Positions 11,068 through 26,932 are shown, numbered from the stretch's first letter. The stretch is DNA of 40,334 nucleotides from Sphingomonadaceae bacterium (GCA_025362895.1 JANYFA010000030.1:1-40334); one strand, 5' to 3'. The notes: generated from the letters alone by a model not told the origin. Translations and numbers: made by a program.

Positions 11068-12495
11068 ATGCGGACAGTAGCGACGGTGCTGGCGATGGCG
11101 TTTGGCGTGCCGGCAGCGGCACTAACCATGGCCGTGCCGCCATCTTTGACGCCCGACGAGGGCGCCGCCTTGGTCCGCGACCGGGCGCTGGCGGGTAATG
11201 CCGCTTACGCCGTCGTCGCCGGGCTGACGACCGACATCGGGCCGCGCCTCGCCGCGACCGCCCCCGAGGCGCGTGCGCGCGACTGGATGGCCGCGAAGAT
11301 GACCGCGCTCGGGCTAGCCAAGGTCCATGTTCAAACCTTTGCCGTGCCGCATTGGGAGCGCGGGGTCGAAACCGCGACGACGATTGGCACGAATCCCCAA
11401 CGGCTCGCGCTGACCGCGCTGGGCTATAGCGCGGCGACGCCCGACGCCGGGATCGACGCCGAGGTGGTGCAGTTCGCCGACCTCGAGGCGCTGAAAGCGA
11501 CGTCGCAAAACCTGGCCGGCAAGATCGTGTTTATCGACCATGACATGCGCGCCGCGCGGGACGGGTCGGGGTATGGCGCGTTCAACAGCGTCCGTACCGT
11601 CGGCCCCGCCATCGCCGCAAACAAAGGCGCGGCGGCGTACCTTCACCGCTCGCTCGGCACCGGCCCCGCACGGCTGCCGCATACTGGCGTCACTCGGTTC
11701 CCCGCGGGTATTCCCGCGATTCCAGCGGCGGCGCTCAGCGTGCCCGACGCGATGCAGTTGGCGCGCATGGTCCGTAACGGGCCCGTCCGCCTCCACCTTG
11801 TCCTGACCCCGCGCGATCTCGGCAGCGGCACGTCGGGCAATGTCGTCGGCGAAATTACGGGCACGACCGGCGACGTCGTGCTGACCGGCGGTCACCTCGA
11901 TAGCTGGGATCTTGGCACCGGCGCGATCGACGATGCCGCCGGGGTCGCGATCACCCTTGCGGCGACGGCGACGATCAACGACGCGATCCGCGCCGGGACC
12001 CTACCCCGGCCGAAACGCACGATCCGCGTCGTCGCGTTCGGTGACGAGGAGGCGCAGGGACCGCTTGGCGGCGCGACTTATCTCAAGGGCCATCCCGAAC
12101 CCGTCGTCTTTGCAGTCGAGGCCGACTTCGGCGCCGACCGCGTATGGTCGCTGCGAAGCAACTTCGCCGCCGCCGCGGCGCCGGGACCATCGACGCCCGT
12201 GCTTGCCCCTGCGATCGCCGCCCTCGCCCGCGTCCTCGCGCCGCTGGGCATTGCCCCCTCGCCGCTCCCCGCGCACGGCGGAACGGACATCGAGGCGGCG
12301 GTCGAGGCCGGCGCTGCCGTCGTCGATTTGGCACAGGACGGGGCGCATTATTTCGACCTGCACCACAGTGCCGACGACACGCTCGACAAGATCGATCCCG
12401 CCGCGCTGACTCAGGCGGTCGCCGCCTATGCCGCGACGCTGTGGTGGGCGGCGAACACCGACGCCAACCTGCGCCCGGCAAAGGCGGTGCCGTGA
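11068..12495 (+). CDS. M28 family metallopeptidase, exported
   Basis: Signal MRTVATVLAMAFGVPAAALTMA; metal-ligand motifs GGHLDSWDLGTGAIDDAAG, AFGDEEAQGPLGG, EADFGAD, HHSADDTLDKID. Confidence 0.87.
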   Translation: MRTVATVLAMAFGVPAAALTMAVPPSLTPDEGAALVRDRALAGNAAYAVVAGLTTDIGPRLAATAPEARARDWMAAKMTALGLAKVHVQTFAVPHWERGVETATTIGTNPQRLALTALGYSAATPDAGIDAEVVQFADLEALKATSQNLAGKIVFIDHDMRAARDGSGYGAFNSVRTVGPAIAANKGAAAYLHRSLGTGPARLPHTGVTRFPAGIPAIPAAALSVPDAMQLARMVRNGPVRLHLVLTPRDLGSGTSGNVVGEITGTTGDVVLTGGHLDSWDLGTGAIDDAAGVAITLAATATINDAIRAGTLPRPKRTIRVVAFGDEEAQGPLGGATYLKGHPEPVVFAVEADFGADRVWSLRSNFAAAAAPGPSTPVLAPAIAALARVLAPLGIAPSPLPAHGGTDIEAAVEAGAAVVDLAQDGAHYFDLHHSADDTLDKIDPAALTQAVAAYAATLWWAANTDANLRPAKAVP

Positions 12496-12510
12496 CGCCT
12501 AGGCGCGGGC

Positions 12511-12542
12511 GTTTAGACCGGCTAAACCCTTGCTGGGGTTAG
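12511..12542 (+). promoter_or_regulatory. Two mutually exclusive hairpins upstream of prsK
   Basis: GTTTAG-ACCGG-CTAAAC (12511-12527) and CTAAACCC-TTGCT-GGGGTTAG (12522-12542, one mismatch) share the CTAAAC arm. Confidence 0.4.
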
Positions 12543-12552
12543 GGGGCGGCGC

Positions 12553-14685
12553 GTGCATTTCACCGATGTCGGATTTCTTAGCCATCTGATCGCTGCCTTC
12601 GCTTTCGCCGCGCTCGCGGTGAGCGTCCTCGCGCGACAGTCACCGAACGGCACCAACGCCTGGCTCGTTATCGCGGCGATGGGAACGGTGGCATGGGCGG
12701 GGGACTTCGTCATGGCGGCGCGCTTCGGCGGCGTCTATGTCGCATTGTTGTCCCCCGCCGAGACGCTTCGGACGGGCGCGTGGATCGGTTTTCTTGTCGC
12801 CCTGCTGCGGACATCATGGGCTCTCGATACGCGGCTGAGTTCGTCGTTCGTCATCGCCAGCGCGATCGGCTTCGTCCTCTCGGTTCAGGTCGGCATCGAT
12901 CTGGTCGACCTGATCGGTCACAACGGCCCGTCGCTCCACGCCCGCCCGTTGATCGCGGCGCTGTTCATCGTCGGACGGTTGACCGTGGCGATTTCGGGTC
13001 TGGTCCTGATCCACAACCTGTACGTCAACGTCGAGGCCGGGAGCCGCACGAGCATTCGGTTGCTGTGCATCAGCCTCGCCGGGTTTTTCGGCTACGACCT
13101 CAACCTGTACACGTTCGAATTCTTGCTCGGAGCGCCGTCGCAGGACCTGTTCAATATTCGCGGTGCAGTCGATGTGCTGACCGTTCCCCTGCTTTTGCTG
13201 TCGGCGCGGGAGGCGTGGGTAGCGCGCGTTCAGCTGTCGCGGCAGGTCGTTTTCCACACCCTGTCGATGTCGATCATCGGCGGATACCTGATTGCGATGG
13301 CGCTGCTTGCTTATGGCTTGCGGTTGGTGGGCGGCGATTGGGGGCGGCTGCTTCAAATCACTTTTCTGTTCGCGACGATCACGCTCGGCGCGCTCGTCGT
13401 GCTGCTGCCGCGCTTTCAGGCAGCGCTGCGGCTGCTTATTGCGCGTAATTTTTTCGCCTATCGCTACGACTATCGCGTCGAGTGGCTGCGTTTCATCCGG
13501 ACGGTGTCGGGGATCGATGCCGCCGCCGGACACCTGCCCGAGCGCGTCGTCGAAGCGGTCTGTGCCGTCGTCGATTCACCCGGCGGCGCCTTGTTCGTGC
13601 CGAGCGACGACGGGCATTTCGACATGGCAGCCAAGTGGAACTGGCGCGGCTTCAGTGGCGCGGTCGTGGCCCTCGAGAGCGATCTCGCCATCTTCCTCGC
13701 CAGCCGCCAGTGGGTCATCGACCTCGATCGGCTCCGCGACGGTACCGGCAATTACGATGACCTCCCGGTCCCGGCGTGGGCCGATGGTGACCGGTCCGCG
13801 TGGCTGATCGTCCCGCTGCTCCATCTCGACACACTGCGGGGCTTTATCGTTGTCGAGCGGACGCTGGCGCGGCGGACATTGGGGTGGGAAGACTTCGAAC
13901 TCCTCCGCACCCTCGGGAGGCAGGCGGCGAGCTATATCGCCGAAGCGTCGACGCAGGCCGAGCTCGACGAAGCGGGCAAGTTTGACGAGTTCAACCGCCG
14001 CTTCGCTTTCATCATGCACGACATCAAGAACCTGGTCAGCCAGCTCAGCCTCGTTGCGCGCAACGCCGAGCGCCACGCCGACAACCCCGCCTTTCGCGCC
14101 GATATGGTCGCGACACTGCAGGGGTCGGTCGGCAAGATGAACGACCTGCTTGCGCGCCTCGCACAGCGTACCGCCGGGCGGACCGAACACGACGAGGCGG
14201 TCGACCTTGGCCACCTGATCGCCGAAGTCGTATCGGTCAAATCACGCCAGCACGCGGCGTTGACCTTCGTTCATGATGACGATCTTTGCTTCGTCTCGGG
14301 TGACCCCGTCCGGTTCGAGGCGCTGTTCGGCCACCTGATCCAGAATGCCATTGACGCGAGCGCACCCGATGCGGCGGTCGCGGTCACGCTGGCGCGCGAT
14401 GCCGCTGGTACGGTCGTCACAATCGCCGACTGCGGCAGCGGTATGTCGCCCGCCTTCGTCCGCAATCAATTGTTCAAGCCGTTCCGCTCCACCAAGCCCG
14501 GCGGGTTCGGGATCGGCGCGTATGAGGCCCGCGAGATCGCGCACGCCGCCGGTGGTCGTCTCGATGTCGTCAGCCACGAGGGTGAGGGCACGACATTCAC
14601 TATCTGTCTGCCACTAGCGATGCTGATCGCCGCGTCGAACCGAGTCGCACCCGCCAGCGACCTGCCCAAGAGGATATCTGCGTGA
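12553..14685 (+). CDS. prsK: PrsK-like (XrtA/PEP-CTERM system) membrane histidine kinase
   Basis: N-terminal multi-TM, GAF-like region, then FAFIMHDIKNLVSQLSLVARNAERHADNPAFRADM, LIQNAIDAS, IADCGSGMSPAFVRNQLFKPFRSTKPGGFGIGAYEAREIAHAAGG. GTG start. Confidence 0.85.
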   Translation: MHFTDVGFLSHLIAAFAFAALAVSVLARQSPNGTNAWLVIAAMGTVAWAGDFVMAARFGGVYVALLSPAETLRTGAWIGFLVALLRTSWALDTRLSSSFVIASAIGFVLSVQVGIDLVDLIGHNGPSLHARPLIAALFIVGRLTVAISGLVLIHNLYVNVEAGSRTSIRLLCISLAGFFGYDLNLYTFEFLLGAPSQDLFNIRGAVDVLTVPLLLLSAREAWVARVQLSRQVVFHTLSMSIIGGYLIAMALLAYGLRLVGGDWGRLLQITFLFATITLGALVVLLPRFQAALRLLIARNFFAYRYDYRVEWLRFIRTVSGIDAAAGHLPERVVEAVCAVVDSPGGALFVPSDDGHFDMAAKWNWRGFSGAVVALESDLAIFLASRQWVIDLDRLRDGTGNYDDLPVPAWADGDRSAWLIVPLLHLDTLRGFIVVERTLARRTLGWEDFELLRTLGRQAASYIAEASTQAELDEAGKFDEFNRRFAFIMHDIKNLVSQLSLVARNAERHADNPAFRADMVATLQGSVGKMNDLLARLAQRTAGRTEHDEAVDLGHLIAEVVSVKSRQHAALTFVHDDDLCFVSGDPVRFEALFGHLIQNAIDASAPDAAVAVTLARDAAGTVVTIADCGSGMSPAFVRNQLFKPFRSTKPGGFGIGAYEAREIAHAAGGRLDVVSHEGEGTTFTICLPLAMLIAASNRVAPASDLPKRISA

Positions 14686-16034
14686 GTGACGTGTCGCGTA
14701 AGTTGCTGGTGGTCGAAGACGATGAGGGACTGCAGCGGCAGCTTCGCTGGAGCTATGAGGACTATGACGTCGTCATCGCCGGCGACCGCACTGCTGCGCT
14801 TGCGGCGATCGAGGCTCATGCTCCGGCGGTTGTGACGCTCGATCTCGGCCTCCCGCCCGATCCCGATGGGACGAGCGAGGGTTTTGTGACGCTCGACGCC
14901 ATCCTCGCAGCGCGACCGCAGACCAAGGTCATCGTCGCATCGGGACACGGTGCGCGTTCGAGCGCGATGCGGGCAATCGCAGCGGGGGCGTTCGACTTTT
15001 ACGCCAAGCCAGTCGACATCGACGAACTCGGCATGATCGTCCGCCGGGCCTATCACGTCTACGATCTGGAGGACGAGAACCGCCGCCTGCGCGCCGCCGA
15101 AACGAATGTCGGCGTTCTTGGCGGCATCGTCACTGGGGCACCCGAGATGCTCAAGGTCGCGCGAATGATCGAGCGCGTCGCCACCGCCGACGTCTCGGTT
15201 GTCCTGCTCGGCGCGAGCGGGACGGGCAAAGAGCTCCTCGCGCGCGGGCTGCACCAGGCGTCGCTCCGCGCGGGCAAGCCCTTCGTTGCGATCAACTGCG
15301 CGGCGATCCCGGAGAACCTGTTGGAAGCCGAACTTTTTGGCTACGAAAAAGGGGCGTACACCGGGGCGATCAAGACAACCGAGGGCAAGATCGAGCTCGC
15401 CGAAGGGGGCACCTTGTTCCTCGATGAGATCGGCGACGTGCCCCTGCCCCTCCAGGTCAAGCTGCTGCGCTTTCTTCAGGAGCGCGTCATCGAACGGATC
15501 GGCGGGCGCAAGGCCATCCCGGTCGATGTCCGCATCGTCTGCGCGACGCACCAGGACCTCGAAAAAATGATCGCCGAGGGTCGCTTCCGCGAGGATCTAT
15601 ACTACCGCCTTGCCGAGATCATCGTTCGCATCCCCAGTCTCGCCGCGCGTTACGGCGACGCGACGCTGCTCGCCCACCATTTTCTCGCCAAGTTCAGCCG
15701 CGAGAACCGGCGCAGCTTCAAGGGCTTCACCCCCGCCGCCCTCGCCGCGCTCAACGACTGGCATTGGCCGGGCAACGTCCGCGAGCTGGAAAACAAGATG
15801 AAACGCGCGGTCATCATGGCGGAAAACCCGCTGCTCGACGCCGCCGACCTCGATCTCGGCGAGCACGTCCCGTCGTCGCTGGCGCTCAAGACAATGCGCG
15901 AAGACGCCGACCGCCGGGCTATCCGCCTCGCGCTTGCGCGCACCGAAGGCAATGTCTCGACCGCCGCCAAGCTGCTCGGCATCAGCCGCCCGACGCTGTA
16001 TGATATGCTCAAGCTATACGAGATGGAGGGGTAG
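14682..16034 (+). CDS. prsR: PrsR-like response regulator, sigma-54 interaction AAA+ activator
   Basis: Receiver [37 protein letters not shown]+ [55 protein letters not shown]-terminal [32 protein letters not shown] overlap with prsK. Confidence 0.88.
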
Positions 16035-19916: not shown

Positions 19917-20756
19917 ATGGCCAAGTCTGCGGCAGCCGTCGTCGCGCAATTCGCGCCCCAGGCGGCCCCGGCGTTCCGCGCCGCCTTCGCGCGAGGCGAT
20001 GAACTCCTTATGGCGGCAGGCATCACGAGCCCGATCCGTGTCGCGCATTTCATGGCGCAGGTGTTTCAGGAAACCGGGGCGCTGACGCGACTTGTCGAAA
20101 GTGGCACCTATACCGCCGTCGGTCTCGCCAGAATGTGGGACAGCGGGAACTGGCACCGTTATCTTGCCAGCCGCGATGCCTGTCTCGCGATGGCGAGCCA
20201 ATGCGCCATCGATCACGGGGTGGCGCTGTTCAACCTCGTCTACGGCAACCGTATGGGCAATGGCCCTGCTCCCAGCGGCGACGGCTGGAAATTTCGCGGG
20301 CGCGGCGTCCTGCAGACCACGGGTCGCGAAGCGTACGAGCGGTTCCGCACGGCGTGTCACGTCGACTTTATGGGTCAACCCGATCTTGTCATCGCTCCCG
20401 AACATATGCTCAAGCCGGCACTGTCGGAATGGACGGCGGGGCACCTCAACGCCGCCGCCGACAACAACGACATCAATGTCATCACCCATACGATCAACGG
20501 CGGTTTCACCGGGCTCGACGGGCGCAAGGCGTGGTTCGCCAAGTTCTTCCCCTTCCTGACCGGGGCGAACCCCGTCGAGCAGTCGCGCGAATGGCAGGTT
20601 CAGGAGAAGTTGGCGGCGGCGGGATATGACCTCCACCCCGACGGCGTGATCGGTACCGAAACGCGCAAGGCGATCCTCGACTACCGCGTCAAGCACAGAC
20701 TGCCGACCTCACCCGGGATTACCAGCGATCTGCTGTTATCGCTCGGCGTTGCCTGA
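19917..20756 (+). CDS. GH19-like chitinase/endolysin with C-terminal peptidoglycan-binding domain
   Basis: AHFMAQVFQETGALTRLVESGTY, GDGWKFRGRGVLQTTGREAYERF, ITHTINGGFTGLDGRKAWF, C-terminal WQVQEKLAAAGYDLHPDGVIGTETRKAILDYRVKHRL (PG_binding_1-like). No signal peptide apparent. Confidence 0.85.
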   Translation: MAKSAAAVVAQFAPQAAPAFRAAFARGDELLMAAGITSPIRVAHFMAQVFQETGALTRLVESGTYTAVGLARMWDSGNWHRYLASRDACLAMASQCAIDHGVALFNLVYGNRMGNGPAPSGDGWKFRGRGVLQTTGREAYERFRTACHVDFMGQPDLVIAPEHMLKPALSEWTAGHLNAAADNNDINVITHTINGGFTGLDGRKAWFAKFFPFLTGANPVEQSREWQVQEKLAAAGYDLHPDGVIGTETRKAILDYRVKHRLPTSPGITSDLLLSLGVA

Positions 20757-20824: not shown

Positions 20825-21823
20825 ATGGTCGCGCCGATCCTGCTGTTCGATTCGGGTGTTGGTGGCCTGTCGGTGCTCGGCCCCATCCGCGCGGCGCTCC
20901 CGGAGCGGGCGGTCATTTATGCTGCCGACAATGCGGGTTTTCCTTACGGTACCAAAACCGAGGCGGAAATCGCCGGGCGCGTCCCTGCGTTGCTCGGGCG
21001 ACTCGTCGAACGCTACCGTCCGGCCCTCGTCGTTATCGCGTGCAACACCGCATCGACGATCGCACTCGCCGCCGTCCGCGCCGCACTCGACGTTCCAGTC
21101 GTGGGCACTGTGCCGGCGATCAAGCTCGCCGCCGCTTTCTCACGCACTCGCGTCATCGGCGTCCTTGGGACGACGGCCACTGTTCGCCAGCCCTATGTCG
21201 ACCGCCTCGCCGCCGAATTCGCCGCCGATTGCAGGGTAGTTCGGCATGGGTCGGCGCTACTGGTGGAGCTTGCCGAAGCAAAGTTGCGGGGGGCGACGAT
21301 CGACCCCGCCGTCGTCGCGCACGAACTCACGGGGCTGCTCGATCAGCCCGGCGGCGAGCACATCGACGCCGTCGTCCTCGCGTGCACCCACTTTCCGCTA
21401 CTCGCTCTCGAGCTTGCCTCCGCAGCACCACGCTCGCTCACCTTCGTCGATGGCGGCGAGGGAATTGCCCGCCGGGTCGCGTATTTGTTATCAGACGCGG
21501 GGTCGGCTCCTGCCCCCCCCGCAGGCGCCCGCCCCGCGTCTACCGTGCGTTCACTGGCTGCGTTCGGCGCCGCCCCGCCCGCAAGTTCCCGCGCCACCCC
21601 GCCCGCGAGTTCCCGCGCCACCCCGCCCGCGAGTTCCCGCGCCACCCCGCCCGCGAGTTCCCGCGCCACCCCGCCCGCGAGTTCCCGCGCCACCCCGCCC
21701 ACGAGATCCCGCGTGGCGATGCCCGCGAGTTCCCGCGCGGTATTCACCCGCCGCGACGCCGATGTTGACGCGCTCCGCCCGGCCCTCCACAGCGTCGGCC
21801 TCGATGCCATCGACTATCTGTGA
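20825..21823 (+). CDS. murI: Glutamate racemase with low-complexity repeat insertion
   Basis: ILLFDSGVGGLSVLGPIRAALPERAVIYAADNAGFPYGTK, VIACNTASTIAL, VVLACTHFPLLALEL, FVDGGEGIARRVAYLL; repeat insert; then RAVFTRRDADVDALRPALHSVGLDAIDYL. Confidence 0.93.
   Translation: MVAPILLFDSGVGGLSVLGPIRAALPERAVIYAADNAGFPYGTKTEAEIAGRVPALLGRLVERYRPALVVIACNTASTIALAAVRAALDVPVVGTVPAIKLAAAFSRTRVIGVLGTTATVRQPYVDRLAAEFAADCRVVRHGSALLVELAEAKLRGATIDPAVVAHELTGLLDQPGGEHIDAVVLACTHFPLLALELASAAPRSLTFVDGGEGIARRVAYLLSDAGSAPAPPAGARPASTVRSLAAFGAAPPASSRATPPASSRATPPASSRATPPASSRATPPASSRATPPTRSRVAMPASSRAVFTRRDADVDALRPALHSVGLDAIDYL
21577..21744 (+). repeat. 24-bp tandem repeat (about 7 units) inside murI
   Basis: Unit GCCCGCGAGTTCCCGCGCCACCCC; four identical copies 21601-21696, one copy with one mismatch 21577-21600, two diverged copies 21697-21744. 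Encodes (PASSRATP)n. Confidence 0.95.
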
Positions 21824-23452: not shown

Positions 23453-26400
23453 TTATATTCGCGTGACCGGCTTGATGCGATCTTCGACCCGCCCGCTGCG
23501 CTCCAGCTTGCCCCATCCCACGCTCGGGCCGCGCAGCGCCGAGGTTATCGCGCGGATGACGACATAATACATAATCTGGCGATAGCCGAAGCGCTGCGGC
23601 AGCATCAGCCATAGCAGCCGCCACCGTTCGTTCGCCTCCAGCCCGAAGGCGACGATACCGGCAAGAATGTCGATCGCGCCGAAAGCCAGCCAGTAGATGC
23701 CCATGCGGACGACATCGTGCTGCGTCGCCGCCCAGCCGTGCGCCTCGACCGAGATGATTGTCGCGATCAGGCTGGCGATCAGCGCCAGGTCGATCACCGG
23801 TGACACGGCGGCGAACACGATCTGAAACACGATCGCCTGCGGCAAACCGATCCGCGCCAGCCCCGTCGGACGCCCGGTGATAAGGACGGCGCGGTGCTTC
23901 CATAGGCACTGGAGGGTACCGAACGCCCAGCGAAACCGCTGGCGAGCGAGCGCGGCGAAGGTCTCGGGCGCCTCGGTCCACGCGACGGCGTCCTGGTCGT
24001 ACATCACCTTCCACCCGGCGCGCTGGATGGCGATAGTCAGGTCCTGATCTTCCGCAAGCGTATCGGGCGGGTAGCCGCCAACCGCGCGAATCGTCGCCGC
24101 CCGCCATGCCCCGACCGCGCCGGGAACGACGGTCATCGCGTCGAGGCGGGCAAGCGCGCGGCGTTCGAGGTTCTGCGCGGTAATATATTCGAGCGCCTGC
24201 CAGCGGGTGACGAGATTGACGCGGTTGCCGACCTTTGCGTTGCCCGCGACTGCCCCGAGCGCCGGATCGACAAACCAGCGCGCGAGCCGCGCGATCGTGC
24301 TCGGTTCGAACTGCGTATCGGCGTCGAGCGCAACGACAATGTCGCCCGTCGCCAACGTGAGGCCGTGATTGAGCGCGCGCGCCTTACCGCCGTTCGTCAG
24401 CGTCAGCAGGCGAACGCGAGGGTCGTTGGCGAAAACGGTGCGGACGATATCGCTCGTCGCGTCGGTCGATCCGTCGTCGAGGACGATGACCTCGAGCCGG
24501 ACATCGGTGCTCGCGAGCACCCGGTGTATCGAGACCTCGATTACCCGCGCCTCGTTGAACGCCGGGATCAGCACGGAGACGAAGCGGTCGGGATCAATCG
24601 GCGGGCGAGCGACGCCCGCTTCGCGGCGGGCCTGCCACAATGCCAGCGCCGACAGGATTAGCGCGCGCCCGATGCCGAGCGTGATCGCGATCGCGAATAG
24701 CCATCTGAGGCCGACGATGAAAACGTCGATCATGTCGAATAACGCGAGGTCGGTTTTTGATGCGGCAAGCTCATCGGGCGGCAGATTCGGCATGACCTGC
24801 GCCGACGTCAGGCCGATCAGTTCGGACACCGGCACGAAACGAAAGCCTCGCGCTCGCAGTTCGTCGATGAGAACCGGCAACGCAGCAATCGTCTGGCTGC
24901 GGTCCCCGCCGCCATCGTGAAGCAGAACGATGTTGCCGCTGCGCTCGGTCGTTGCCCCCTCGACGCCGTCGATTGTCGTCTGGACGATCGCGTTGACTCC
25001 CGGGCGGCGCCAGTCGGCGGGATCGACGTGGAGACCGACCGTCAGATAGCCGAGCGCCTGGGCGACGGTGACGGGGTCGATTTCGTCGGTCGTCGTCGGC
25101 TCGGCGTCGCCGAAATAGGGCGCGCGGAACAGCTTCATCGCTCTCCCGGTAAACGCCTCGAACAGCCGCTGGTTGGCGCTTAGTTCGATCCGTGTCGCGC
25201 GGGCGGTGGCCTTGCCTAGGTTGGGATGGGTGTAGGTGTGGTTGCCGACCTCGTGCCCTTCAGCGAGCTCGCGTCGGAGGATACCGCGTTCGGGGAGGGT
25301 ATTTTCGCCGATGACGAAGAACGTCGCCGGGACGTGTTTCGCCTTGAGAATATCGAGGATCGCCGGAGTGTAGTTCGGATCAGGACCGTCATCGAAGGTT
25401 AGCGCAACGAGGCCCGGGCGGTAGCCGGCTCGCTCGATCGAGTAGGGCAACGGCAGGCGAACGAAATGCGCGTCGACGATCAAACCGCGCTTATCGATAC
25501 TGACCGCCCGCTGGCCCGGGATAGGCGTCGCGCCGACATGCAGAATTTCACCTGCGCCCTCGATGTCGACGTTGGTGCCAGCGGGCATCGCCTCGATCGT
25601 CGTTGCGGCGACCCGCGTCGTGTGACGTCGACCGAAAATCTTCCAGACCGTCGGGTCCTCTGTCCCCAGGCGCCAGAGCGCGAAGGCGTTGATGCCGAAC
25701 GCGCGGGTTGCGAGCATCTGGTTATAGACGCTGACTGCATCGAGCAGCCAGACAGTGTGAAGCTCCCCGCCACCATCGTAGCGGAACGTGAGGTTACCGC
25801 TCGCAGCATCGAATTGAGGCATGACGTTCGATTCGTGGGCAGTAAGCAGCGCTGATTCGACGGACGTCGCATCGGTTCCCGATTTCGACCAGTCATAGGC
25901 ATAGCTGCCGAGTGCGATCACGATCTTGGCCGGCGGCAGCCCGCGGGTCGCGCGCGCGACCGTCGTTACGAACCATGGTTGCGACGCAATCGGGCCAGAC
26001 GCGTTATCAGGGTCGTTCTCGTCATAGACCATCAGAAACAGGCGATCGACGACCGCTGCGTAGCGCTTCAGGTTCCATTCGGGGTTATCGGCTGGCGCGG
26101 CCATCGCGAGCCGCCACCCGTGCCGCGCGCACCGTTCGTGGGCCTCGCGCAGAAAGGCGAGATAATTCGGCTGGGCCGATTCCGGGAGACTTTCGATATC
26201 GAAGAATATGCCCTCGACGCCAAGGCGTTCGGCGAGAAATCCGGCCTCCAGATTGTCGAGCAGTCGTTTGCGTGCAGCAGGATCCGCCAGCAACGCCGCC
26301 ATGCCCGCGCCGTCCCATTCGCCTTGGATTGCGTTTTGCACCATCGGCACGATCCGCGGGCGCGCGGCGGCGGCGGCGATGATCTGTCGCCCGCGTAGAT

Positions 26401-26812
26401 CGGGGAAGCGCGTCACGACGTGCTCCGGCCCGGTAACCGAGACCCATGCCGGGACGAGCCAGTCGAGGTCGCCGATATGCCGTTCAAGCGAGGCGGCGCT
26501 CGCGTCATCCCACGGGGCATGGAAGCCGACGGCGAGCGCGGCCCCGATTGCCGGTGCCGGGCGGGCTAGCCACGATGCGCGACGAAGGGCCTTGCCGACG
26601 TCGCGCCGAGTGTCATGGGCGAGCTGACCAAGGTCGCGCACCGGCGGTCGTTCGACAGTGAAGGGTAGCGGTAGCCCGGCCGACGTCGATACGATCGAGG
26701 CGGCAAACAGGCCGATCGCTGCAACGATCAACAAAACAAACGCCGTGACGGCCACGCCGAAACGCCGCCGCCGCCGCCCGCTAGGGTCGTGAAATACCGC
26801 GCGCTCAACCAT
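23453..26812 (-). CDS. Tri-modular membrane protein: GH18-like domain + CE4 polysaccharide deacetylase (NodB) + GT2 family glycosyltransferase
   Basis: 1119 aa. GH18-like segment ~aa 90-400 with LGVEGIFFDIES and FLMVYDENDPDN; CE4 ~aa 465-665 with LTFDDGPDPNYTP, HTYTHP, RAPYFGDAEP, LLHDGGGDRSQT; TM; GT2 ~aa 740-1080 with VSVLIPAFNEARVI, VLDDGSTDATSD, ALDADTQFEP, TLAEDQDLTI, RQRFRWAFGTLQ; C-terminal TMs. Confidence 0.93.
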   Translation of the reverse strand: MVERAVFHDPSGRRRRRFGVAVTAFVLLIVAAIGLFAASIVSTSAGLPLPFTVERPPVRDLGQLAHDTRRDVGKALRRASWLARPAPAIGAALAVGFHAPWDDASAASLERHIGDLDWLVPAWVSVTGPEHVVTRFPDLRGRQIIAAAAARPRIVPMVQNAIQGEWDGAGMAALLADPAARKRLLDNLEAGFLAERLGVEGIFFDIESLPESAQPNYLAFLREAHERCARHGWRLAMAAPADNPEWNLKRYAAVVDRLFLMVYDENDPDNASGPIASQPWFVTTVARATRGLPPAKIVIALGSYAYDWSKSGTDATSVESALLTAHESNVMPQFDAASGNLTFRYDGGGELHTVWLLDAVSVYNQMLATRAFGINAFALWRLGTEDPTVWKIFGRRHTTRVAATTIEAMPAGTNVDIEGAGEILHVGATPIPGQRAVSIDKRGLIVDAHFVRLPLPYSIERAGYRPGLVALTFDDGPDPNYTPAILDILKAKHVPATFFVIGENTLPERGILRRELAEGHEVGNHTYTHPNLGKATARATRIELSANQRLFEAFTGRAMKLFRAPYFGDAEPTTTDEIDPVTVAQALGYLTVGLHVDPADWRRPGVNAIVQTTIDGVEGATTERSGNIVLLHDGGGDRSQTIAALPVLIDELRARGFRFVPVSELIGLTSAQVMPNLPPDELAASKTDLALFDMIDVFIVGLRWLFAIAITLGIGRALILSALALWQARREAGVARPPIDPDRFVSVLIPAFNEARVIEVSIHRVLASTDVRLEVIVLDDGSTDATSDIVRTVFANDPRVRLLTLTNGGKARALNHGLTLATGDIVVALDADTQFEPSTIARLARWFVDPALGAVAGNAKVGNRVNLVTRWQALEYITAQNLERRALARLDAMTVVPGAVGAWRAATIRAVGGYPPDTLAEDQDLTIAIQRAGWKVMYDQDAVAWTEAPETFAALARQRFRWAFGTLQCLWKHRAVLITGRPTGLARIGLPQAIVFQIVFAAVSPVIDLALIASLIATIISVEAHGWAATQHDVVRMGIYWLAFGAIDILAGIVAFGLEANERWRLLWLMLPQRFGYRQIMYYVVIRAITSALRGPSVGWGKLERSGRVEDRIKPVTRI

Positions 26813-26932
26813 GAAGGGAAGGTTTCATCCGCCGTCGTGTGCCGTTCGGGCGAGCCTTAGCGCAACCGACGTGCCCGCGCGATAGTTAGTCCGCCGGATG
26901 CCAATCCGCGCGTCCTAATCTTGGAGATTTCA

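Follow-up and report, generated by a model that had tools for sequence, protein, structure and literature searches.

A single gene on the minus strand of the DNA analysed here (the window: 40,334 nucleotides, GCA_025362895.1 JANYFA010000030.1:1-40334, Sphingomonadaceae bacterium) encodes a GH18-CE4-GT2 three-domain fusion protein, P0001 (23453..26812, 1119 aa, ATG start). All three domains are apparently active, and the protein is probably an inner-membrane synthase of a GlcNAc polymer, whose single chain would also deacetylate and trim the product in the periplasm. It is no one-off: the family to which it belongs, as an intact member, is widespread and uncharacterised. New here are the position of the fusion gene beside one orthologous two-component system in eight genomes of six genera, and a group of Rhodobacter-type relatives whose fused GH18 lacks the catalytic acid, with CE4 and GT2 intact and a candidate hydrolase gene alongside. 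This cis/trans hydrolase pattern may be the part that specialists find new.

Domain architecture and active sites

The order along the chain is a first TM helix, GH18, CE4/NodB, a second TM helix, processive GT2 and C-terminal membrane helices; the three domains thus stand on one chain in the order of the GH18-CE4-GT2 trifunctional fusion family. The initial annotation had proposed this layout for a single 1119-aa ORF, giving no strand, and Pfam, an AlphaFold2 model and Foldseek bore it out and backed all three domain identities. Pfam matches for GH18, CE4 and GT2 all exceeded the curated cut-offs. The motifs quoted earlier were located at D205-x-E207, T472-FDDGP, H525-TYTHP, R563-APY, L630-LHDGGGD, D779-D780, D830-A-D832, E921-D922 and Q958-xx-R961-W962. 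An assembly artefact as the source of the fusion was ruled out by dozens of full-length homologues in one frame.

The GH18 domain (residues 93-391; 25640..26536, minus strand) is of the SleL/YaaH/chitinase type (Pfam PF00704; Glyco_hydro_18 match at residues 164-383, 45.7 bits). It was matched by phmmer to 5jh8, 3cz8 and 4s3j, and by Foldseek to the Chromobacterium chitinase 5jh8 (TM-score 0.84 by target) and SleL. In alignments, the segment with the catalytic D205-I-E207 (26192..26200, minus strand) falls on the D-F-E of 5jh8, YdhD and SleL (5jh8, 3cz8, 4s3j). A Glu preceded by Asp (D-x-E), M-x-Y-D and a C-terminal Trp, as expected of an active GH18, are all present. A beta-rich linker domain (residues 403-465; 25418..25606, minus strand), seen as strands in the AlphaFold2 model, joins GH18 to CE4.

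The CE4/NodB deacetylase domain (residues 468-667; 24812..25411, minus strand; Pfam PF01522, Polysacc_deac_1 match at residues 467-566, 107.6 bits) has motifs 1-5 in non-permuted order, at residues 472, 525, 563, 597 and 630. The active-CE4 signatures TFDD, H(S/T)xxH, RxPY, DxxDW and LxH were all found. By Foldseek, the domain resembles peptidoglycan/chitin deacetylases and an acetylxylan esterase (0.83-0.90 by target; 4l1g/7fbw). The processive GT2 catalytic domain (residues 744-972; 23897..24583, minus strand) carries DD, DAD, AED and QRFRW (Pfam PF13641/PF00535; Glyco_tranf_2_3 match at residues 742-965, 114.7 bits), and its Foldseek relatives are hyaluronan and cellulose synthases.

To estimate conservation we used 89 full-length Sphingomonadales homologues of about 55-86% identity, in which every catalytic residue of the three domains is invariant: D205, E207, M261, Y263, D264 and W380 of GH18, the metal-binding and catalytic positions in each of the five CE4 motifs, and the DD, DxD, AED and QxxRW motifs of GT2. 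Neither of the sequence-based outcomes that the initial annotation had named as fatal to its proposal, a lack of GH18 support in domain searches or a loss of CE4 metal ligands, was observed, given the Pfam match and the invariant metal positions. Invariant positions amount to 9.6% in GH18, 27% in CE4 and 40% in GT2, so that GH18 is the fastest-evolving of the three. That the catalytic set alone is invariant in so fast a domain speaks for an active hydrolase within the Sphingomonadales group; on the same grounds, chance occurrence of the motifs and a decayed GH18 in the window protein were both ruled out.

Hydropathy analysis indicated a helix at the N-terminus, another between CE4 and GT2, and two or three at the C-terminus. 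The N-terminal TM helix (residues 13-42; 26687..26776, minus strand) has its hydropathy peak at 20-38 and is opened by the run RRRRR. The second (residues 679-733; 24614..24778, minus strand; peak at 705-723) would lead back into the cytosol. Both are helices over these residues in the AlphaFold2 model. The C-terminal membrane helices (residues 983-1094; 23531..23866, minus strand), modelled at 983-1025, 1027-1058 and 1064-1094, form a putative translocation channel. Since the arginine run stands at the first helix, the N-terminus is presumably cytoplasmic, and together with the hydropathy helices this would place GH18 and CE4 in the periplasm and GT2 in the cytosol. The AlphaFold2 model, built from 33 homologues, reached a mean pLDDT of 82 with a pTM of only 0.51; its single folds are therefore usable, but its inter-domain placement is not.

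Family distribution and gene neighbourhood

The fusion was found over most of its length in 26 of 151 sampled Sphingomonadaceae genomes, about a sixth (the window's own genome and one truncated copy included). The carriers include two 2.1-Mb genomes, and two genomes (G012 and G030) have two copies each. Among the best 80 of 349 related stretches in a GTDB species scan, nearly all were Sphingomonad copies. Outside the family, five other carriers are scattered among 289 genomes of the same class, one genome belongs to another class of Pseudomonadota, and further copies lie on Deinococcus and Prevotella plasmids; the family thus reaches Pseudomonadota, Deinococcota and Bacteroidota. Actinobacterial relatives on Kocuria and Streptomyces plasmids match the CE4-GT2 part only, and a 'chitinase' neighbouring the Kocuria gene was rejected as a free-standing counterpart of the fused GH18, with which BLAST gave no match. 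The resolution of domain trees of the distant members was too poor for dating the fusion.

The initial annotation had suggested that similar fusions may exist in databases; the exact three-domain protein is common. Its homologues are usually annotated as 'glycosyltransferase' only. The NCBI CDD models cd06549 (GH18_trifunctional) and cd10962 (CE4_GT2-like) stand for an uncharacterised bacterial family of GH18, NodB and GT2 domains, which is the architecture seen here. Our literature search found no paper on a GH18-CE4-GT2 protein and no biochemically tested GH18-bearing member; a full-text search for cd06549 matched one paper, in whose main text nothing on the model was found.

The copy at L134 9423-14399 (G136, same genus) matches over residues 1-920 only, and its open frame runs on without the rest of GT2, which is either an assembly error or a real truncation. 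The record L062 (QDFQ01000004.1), labelled 'Arthrobacter sp. TPD3018', has a copy 60% identical to that of the window, as is the Sphingomonas aquatilis copy over the same residues; the record is probably mislabelled or a mixed genome.

In Sphingobium, the fusion gene overlaps a run of genes for a VirJ/AcvB-like protein, MprF (904 bits, cut-off 600), a response regulator and a histidine kinase. We searched 26 carrier and 26 non-carrier genomes for the regulator at the same threshold. Of the 11 carriers having an orthologue, eight have it no more than about 2 kb from the fusion (a count inflated by shared ancestry), and the non-carriers gave a match in only 3/26, at 59-62% identity. The eight linked genomes represent six genera, with arrangements both upstream and downstream, and chance adjacency is implausible; MprF and VirJ/AcvB genes also stand beside the fusion in some of them. 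These neighbours point to a role in envelope stress or surface charge in the two-component-linked lineages. The window lineage is without regulator, MprF or VirJ neighbours; here a DUF3597 gene is divergent upstream and an enoyl-CoA hydratase-family gene convergent downstream.

Clues to an exporter were sought around the gene. The initial annotation had noted no pgaA/pgaD-like partners adjacent, which holds within the window, and no conserved outer-membrane partner stands next to the fusion gene in Sphingomonads. A shared neighbourhood was of no help, as the flanks of most Sphingomonads differ from those of the window. OPX genes are present in 26/27 carrier genomes but away from the fusion, hence nothing specific. 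A general-stress (EcfG) promoter was considered because DUF3597 and CsbD adjoin the fusion gene, and was rejected: GGAAC-N16/18-CGTT occurs in 0/100 upstream regions.

Several other features were recorded at these loci. The interval between the fusion and DUF3597 (window 26813-26932) has a motif (AACTATCGCGCG...CGGTTGCG.TAAG) that the closest two relatives, L023 and L024, also have and that may be a shared promoter or operator. A small protein encoded some 3 kb away from the fusion (window 19917-20756, plus strand) combines a weak, sub-cut-off GH19 chitinase-like match with a peptidoglycan-binding domain. An Asp/Glu racemase (MurI-like) gene (window 20825-21823, plus strand) contains about seven copies of a 24-base tandem repeat (21567-21738) encoding ATPPASSR near the C-terminus. 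In the Rhizorhabdus/S. formosensis group (L071 9344-10750, plus strand, and about 12 other loci), the gene just downstream of the fusion encodes a hydrophobic protein of roughly 468 aa with no Pfam or NCBIfam match. On the Deinococcus plasmid, a GAF-GGDEF diguanylate cyclase lies directly downstream (L113 9594-11129), a hint at a possible c-di-GMP link.

Relatives with an inactivated GH18

In the copies of G164, G303, G535, Sulfitobacter and Limimaricola, E207 and the MxYD motif are gone from the GH18-homologous region; GIFFDIESL of the window reads, for example, GYCLDASPL or GLCFDMRRL. Pfam GH18 was weak in the G164 copy and undetected in those of Sulfitobacter and Limimaricola. The CE4 and GT2 sites of these copies are complete apart from conservative changes.

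A DUF3131 gene adjoins the GH18-dead fusion at five loci (L114, L128, L129, L131, L133). At L132 (G164) its place is taken by a Poly_export (OPX) gene and a separate GH18, just downstream on the same strand, the latter with the textbook motif DGIDIDWE. On the Sulfitobacter sp. OXR-159 plasmid (L130), the fusion is split between two annotated CDS, close to IS elements, and its annotated neighbours include no DUF3131. DUF3131 was matched at none of the roughly 80 loci that have an intact catalytic set and 3 kb or more of sequence downstream (some of them duplicates of one genome). No solved relative of DUF3131 was found; the sole match of its profile was sub-threshold, to a putative glucoamylase (E=0.58). 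Another gene of L132, upstream of the fusion, encodes a cytochrome P450 fused to two cyclic-nucleotide-binding domains (12355-14688, minus strand).

The simplest reading of the pattern, offered as a hypothesis, is that a periplasmic cut is required and may come in cis from the fused GH18 or in trans from a neighbouring gene. The number of independent lineages behind this argument is small, and DUF3131 is only a putative hydrolase.

Relation to known systems and nature of the product

The PgaABCD/IcaADBC systems, like the fusion, comprise a GT2 synthase and a deacetylase (in PgaB a hydrolase too). They differ in having separate proteins, a permuted CE4, a GH153 hydrolase and a dedicated PgaA porin, which was found in none of the 27 carrier genomes. 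The hydrolase of PgaB belongs to GH153 (PMC5933820), and the CE4 domain of PNAG deacetylases is circularly permuted (PMC5855634), which that of the fusion is not. PgaA (TIGR03939) and PgaB (TIGR03938) exceeded the curated cut-offs in 0/27 fusion-carrying genomes, the window's own genome (G000) being 77% complete; one control genome was over the cut-off in each search. The PgaA porin and PgaB expected with a pga operon were thus not found in these carriers. Comparison of the fusion CE4 with E. coli PgaB yielded no significant match. On these grounds a fused PgaB-PgaC was ruled out, and the PgaB analogy of the initial annotation is not supported: the hydrolase is GH18, not GH153, and the CE4 motifs run 1-2-3-4-5, with 45% identity to NodB.

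The closest architecture is that of Streptomyces MatB (matAB), a CE4-TM-GT2 fusion required for PNAG production, whose product is recognised via mAb F598 and dispersin B (PMC5972031). As in the window protein, CE4 (of PgdA/NodB type) and GT2 are joined on one chain via a TM helix; MatB is without the N-terminal GH18, and Streptomyces is monoderm. The nearest GT2 homologues of the fusion are actinobacterial CE4-GT2 proteins (51% identity, MatB itself being outside the comparison set), with E. coli PgaC at 34% and NodC at 33%. A 2020 study (PMC7112194) described Gram-negative GT-deacetylase fusions encoded in operons that have neither pgaA nor pgaD. The initial annotation had assigned these activities, in poly-GlcNAc systems, to separate proteins, a claim contradicted by MatB, by those fusions and by the common three-domain protein. 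NodB and NodC resemble the CE4 (45%) and the GT2 (33%), but they are separate proteins without GH18, and NodC makes short oligomers. The fusion is far under both NCBIfam equivalog cut-offs (NodB, 141.6 bits against 240; NodC, 104.4 against 550); its best NCBIfam match is PgaC/IcaA (TIGR03937) at 170.8 bits, under the cut-off of 422.3.

We infer the substrate, the sequence of steps and the topology of the fusion protein as follows. The cytosolic GT2 would polymerise UDP-GlcNAc, and the C-terminal helices would pass the chain to the periplasm, by homology to hyaluronan and cellulose synthases. There the tethered CE4 may take off some acetyl groups, and the tethered GH18 may cut at residues still acetylated, which would fix the length of the chain, free it or clear stalled chains. 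The N-acetyl group of the substrate itself is used in GH18 catalysis, so GH18 should act where CE4 has not. The initial proposal that the protein may make, deacetylate and trim or export one polymer, with catalytic steps split across the inner membrane, is supported as regards the three apparently active domains, the likely topology and a poly-GlcNAc-type product; export by this protein is at most a conjecture, and no dedicated outer-membrane partner is adjacent.

The sugar specificity of GT2 is not readable from its motifs, and the cues to linkage differ: GH18 with an ordinary CE4 favours beta-1,4, and GT2 kinship with MatB/PgaC favours beta-1,6. Within the proposed GlcNAc-polymer synthase, the product is quite possibly, though not probably, a beta-1,4 chitin/chitosan-like polymer or oligomer, with GH18 as chitinase and CE4 as chitin deacetylase, in effect NodC and NodB on one chain. 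GH18 is closest to chitinase 5jh8 and SleL, CE4 is 45% identical to NodB and structurally like chitin/peptidoglycan deacetylases, and a separate DGIDIDWE GH18 adjoins a member whose own GH18 is dead; yet GT2 scores higher with PgaC/IcaA than with NodC, and MatB, with a similar CE4, is tied to a beta-1,6 product. We tentatively entertain, as the other sub-case, beta-1,6 PNAG as made by MatB/PgaC, with GH18 as a chain-releasing enzyme adapted to this linkage. The GT2 is nearest to the MatB type and PgaC/IcaA, and the MatB product was identified with mAb F598 and dispersin B, but the CE4 is not of the permuted PNAG type and resembles NodB/PgdA, and PgaA and PgaB are missing from the carrier genomes. 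To our knowledge, moreover, no characterised GH18 acts on beta-1,6-GlcNAc.

It is improbable that the fusion mainly remodels the existing wall, with GH18 and CE4 acting on peptidoglycan in the manner of SleL and PgdA and GT2 making a minor linked glycan. The nearest solved relatives do include the peptidoglycan enzymes SleL and BC1960. Against this, the nascent product of a synthase retained on their chain in three phyla is the more economical substrate, and in one lineage an OPX gene next door speaks for an exopolysaccharide. Returning to a GlcNAc-polymer synthase, its most specific form would be a self-contained Gram-negative machine that makes a partly deacetylated, chitosan-like beta-1,4 glycan, in which the required periplasmic cut comes from the fused GH18 or, where this has decayed to a non-catalytic scaffold, from an adjacent DUF3131 or chitinase gene, and which some of the Sphingomonadales would link, through a two-component system with MprF and VirJ/AcvB, to an envelope-charge response. 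In all its parts together, this picture is rather unlikely.

If the proposed role is correct, a single gene would make an amino-sugar polymer, deacetylate it and control its length, a task that takes several proteins in PNAG systems. The role of the hydrolase in PgaB has been called unknown (PMC7112194), and the split between members with an intact GH18 and those with a dead GH18 plus neighbour would make it possible to test directly what a hydrolase is for in exopolysaccharide systems. The fusion would also be a compact means of obtaining defined chitosan- or PNAG-like polymers from harmless environmental bacteria.
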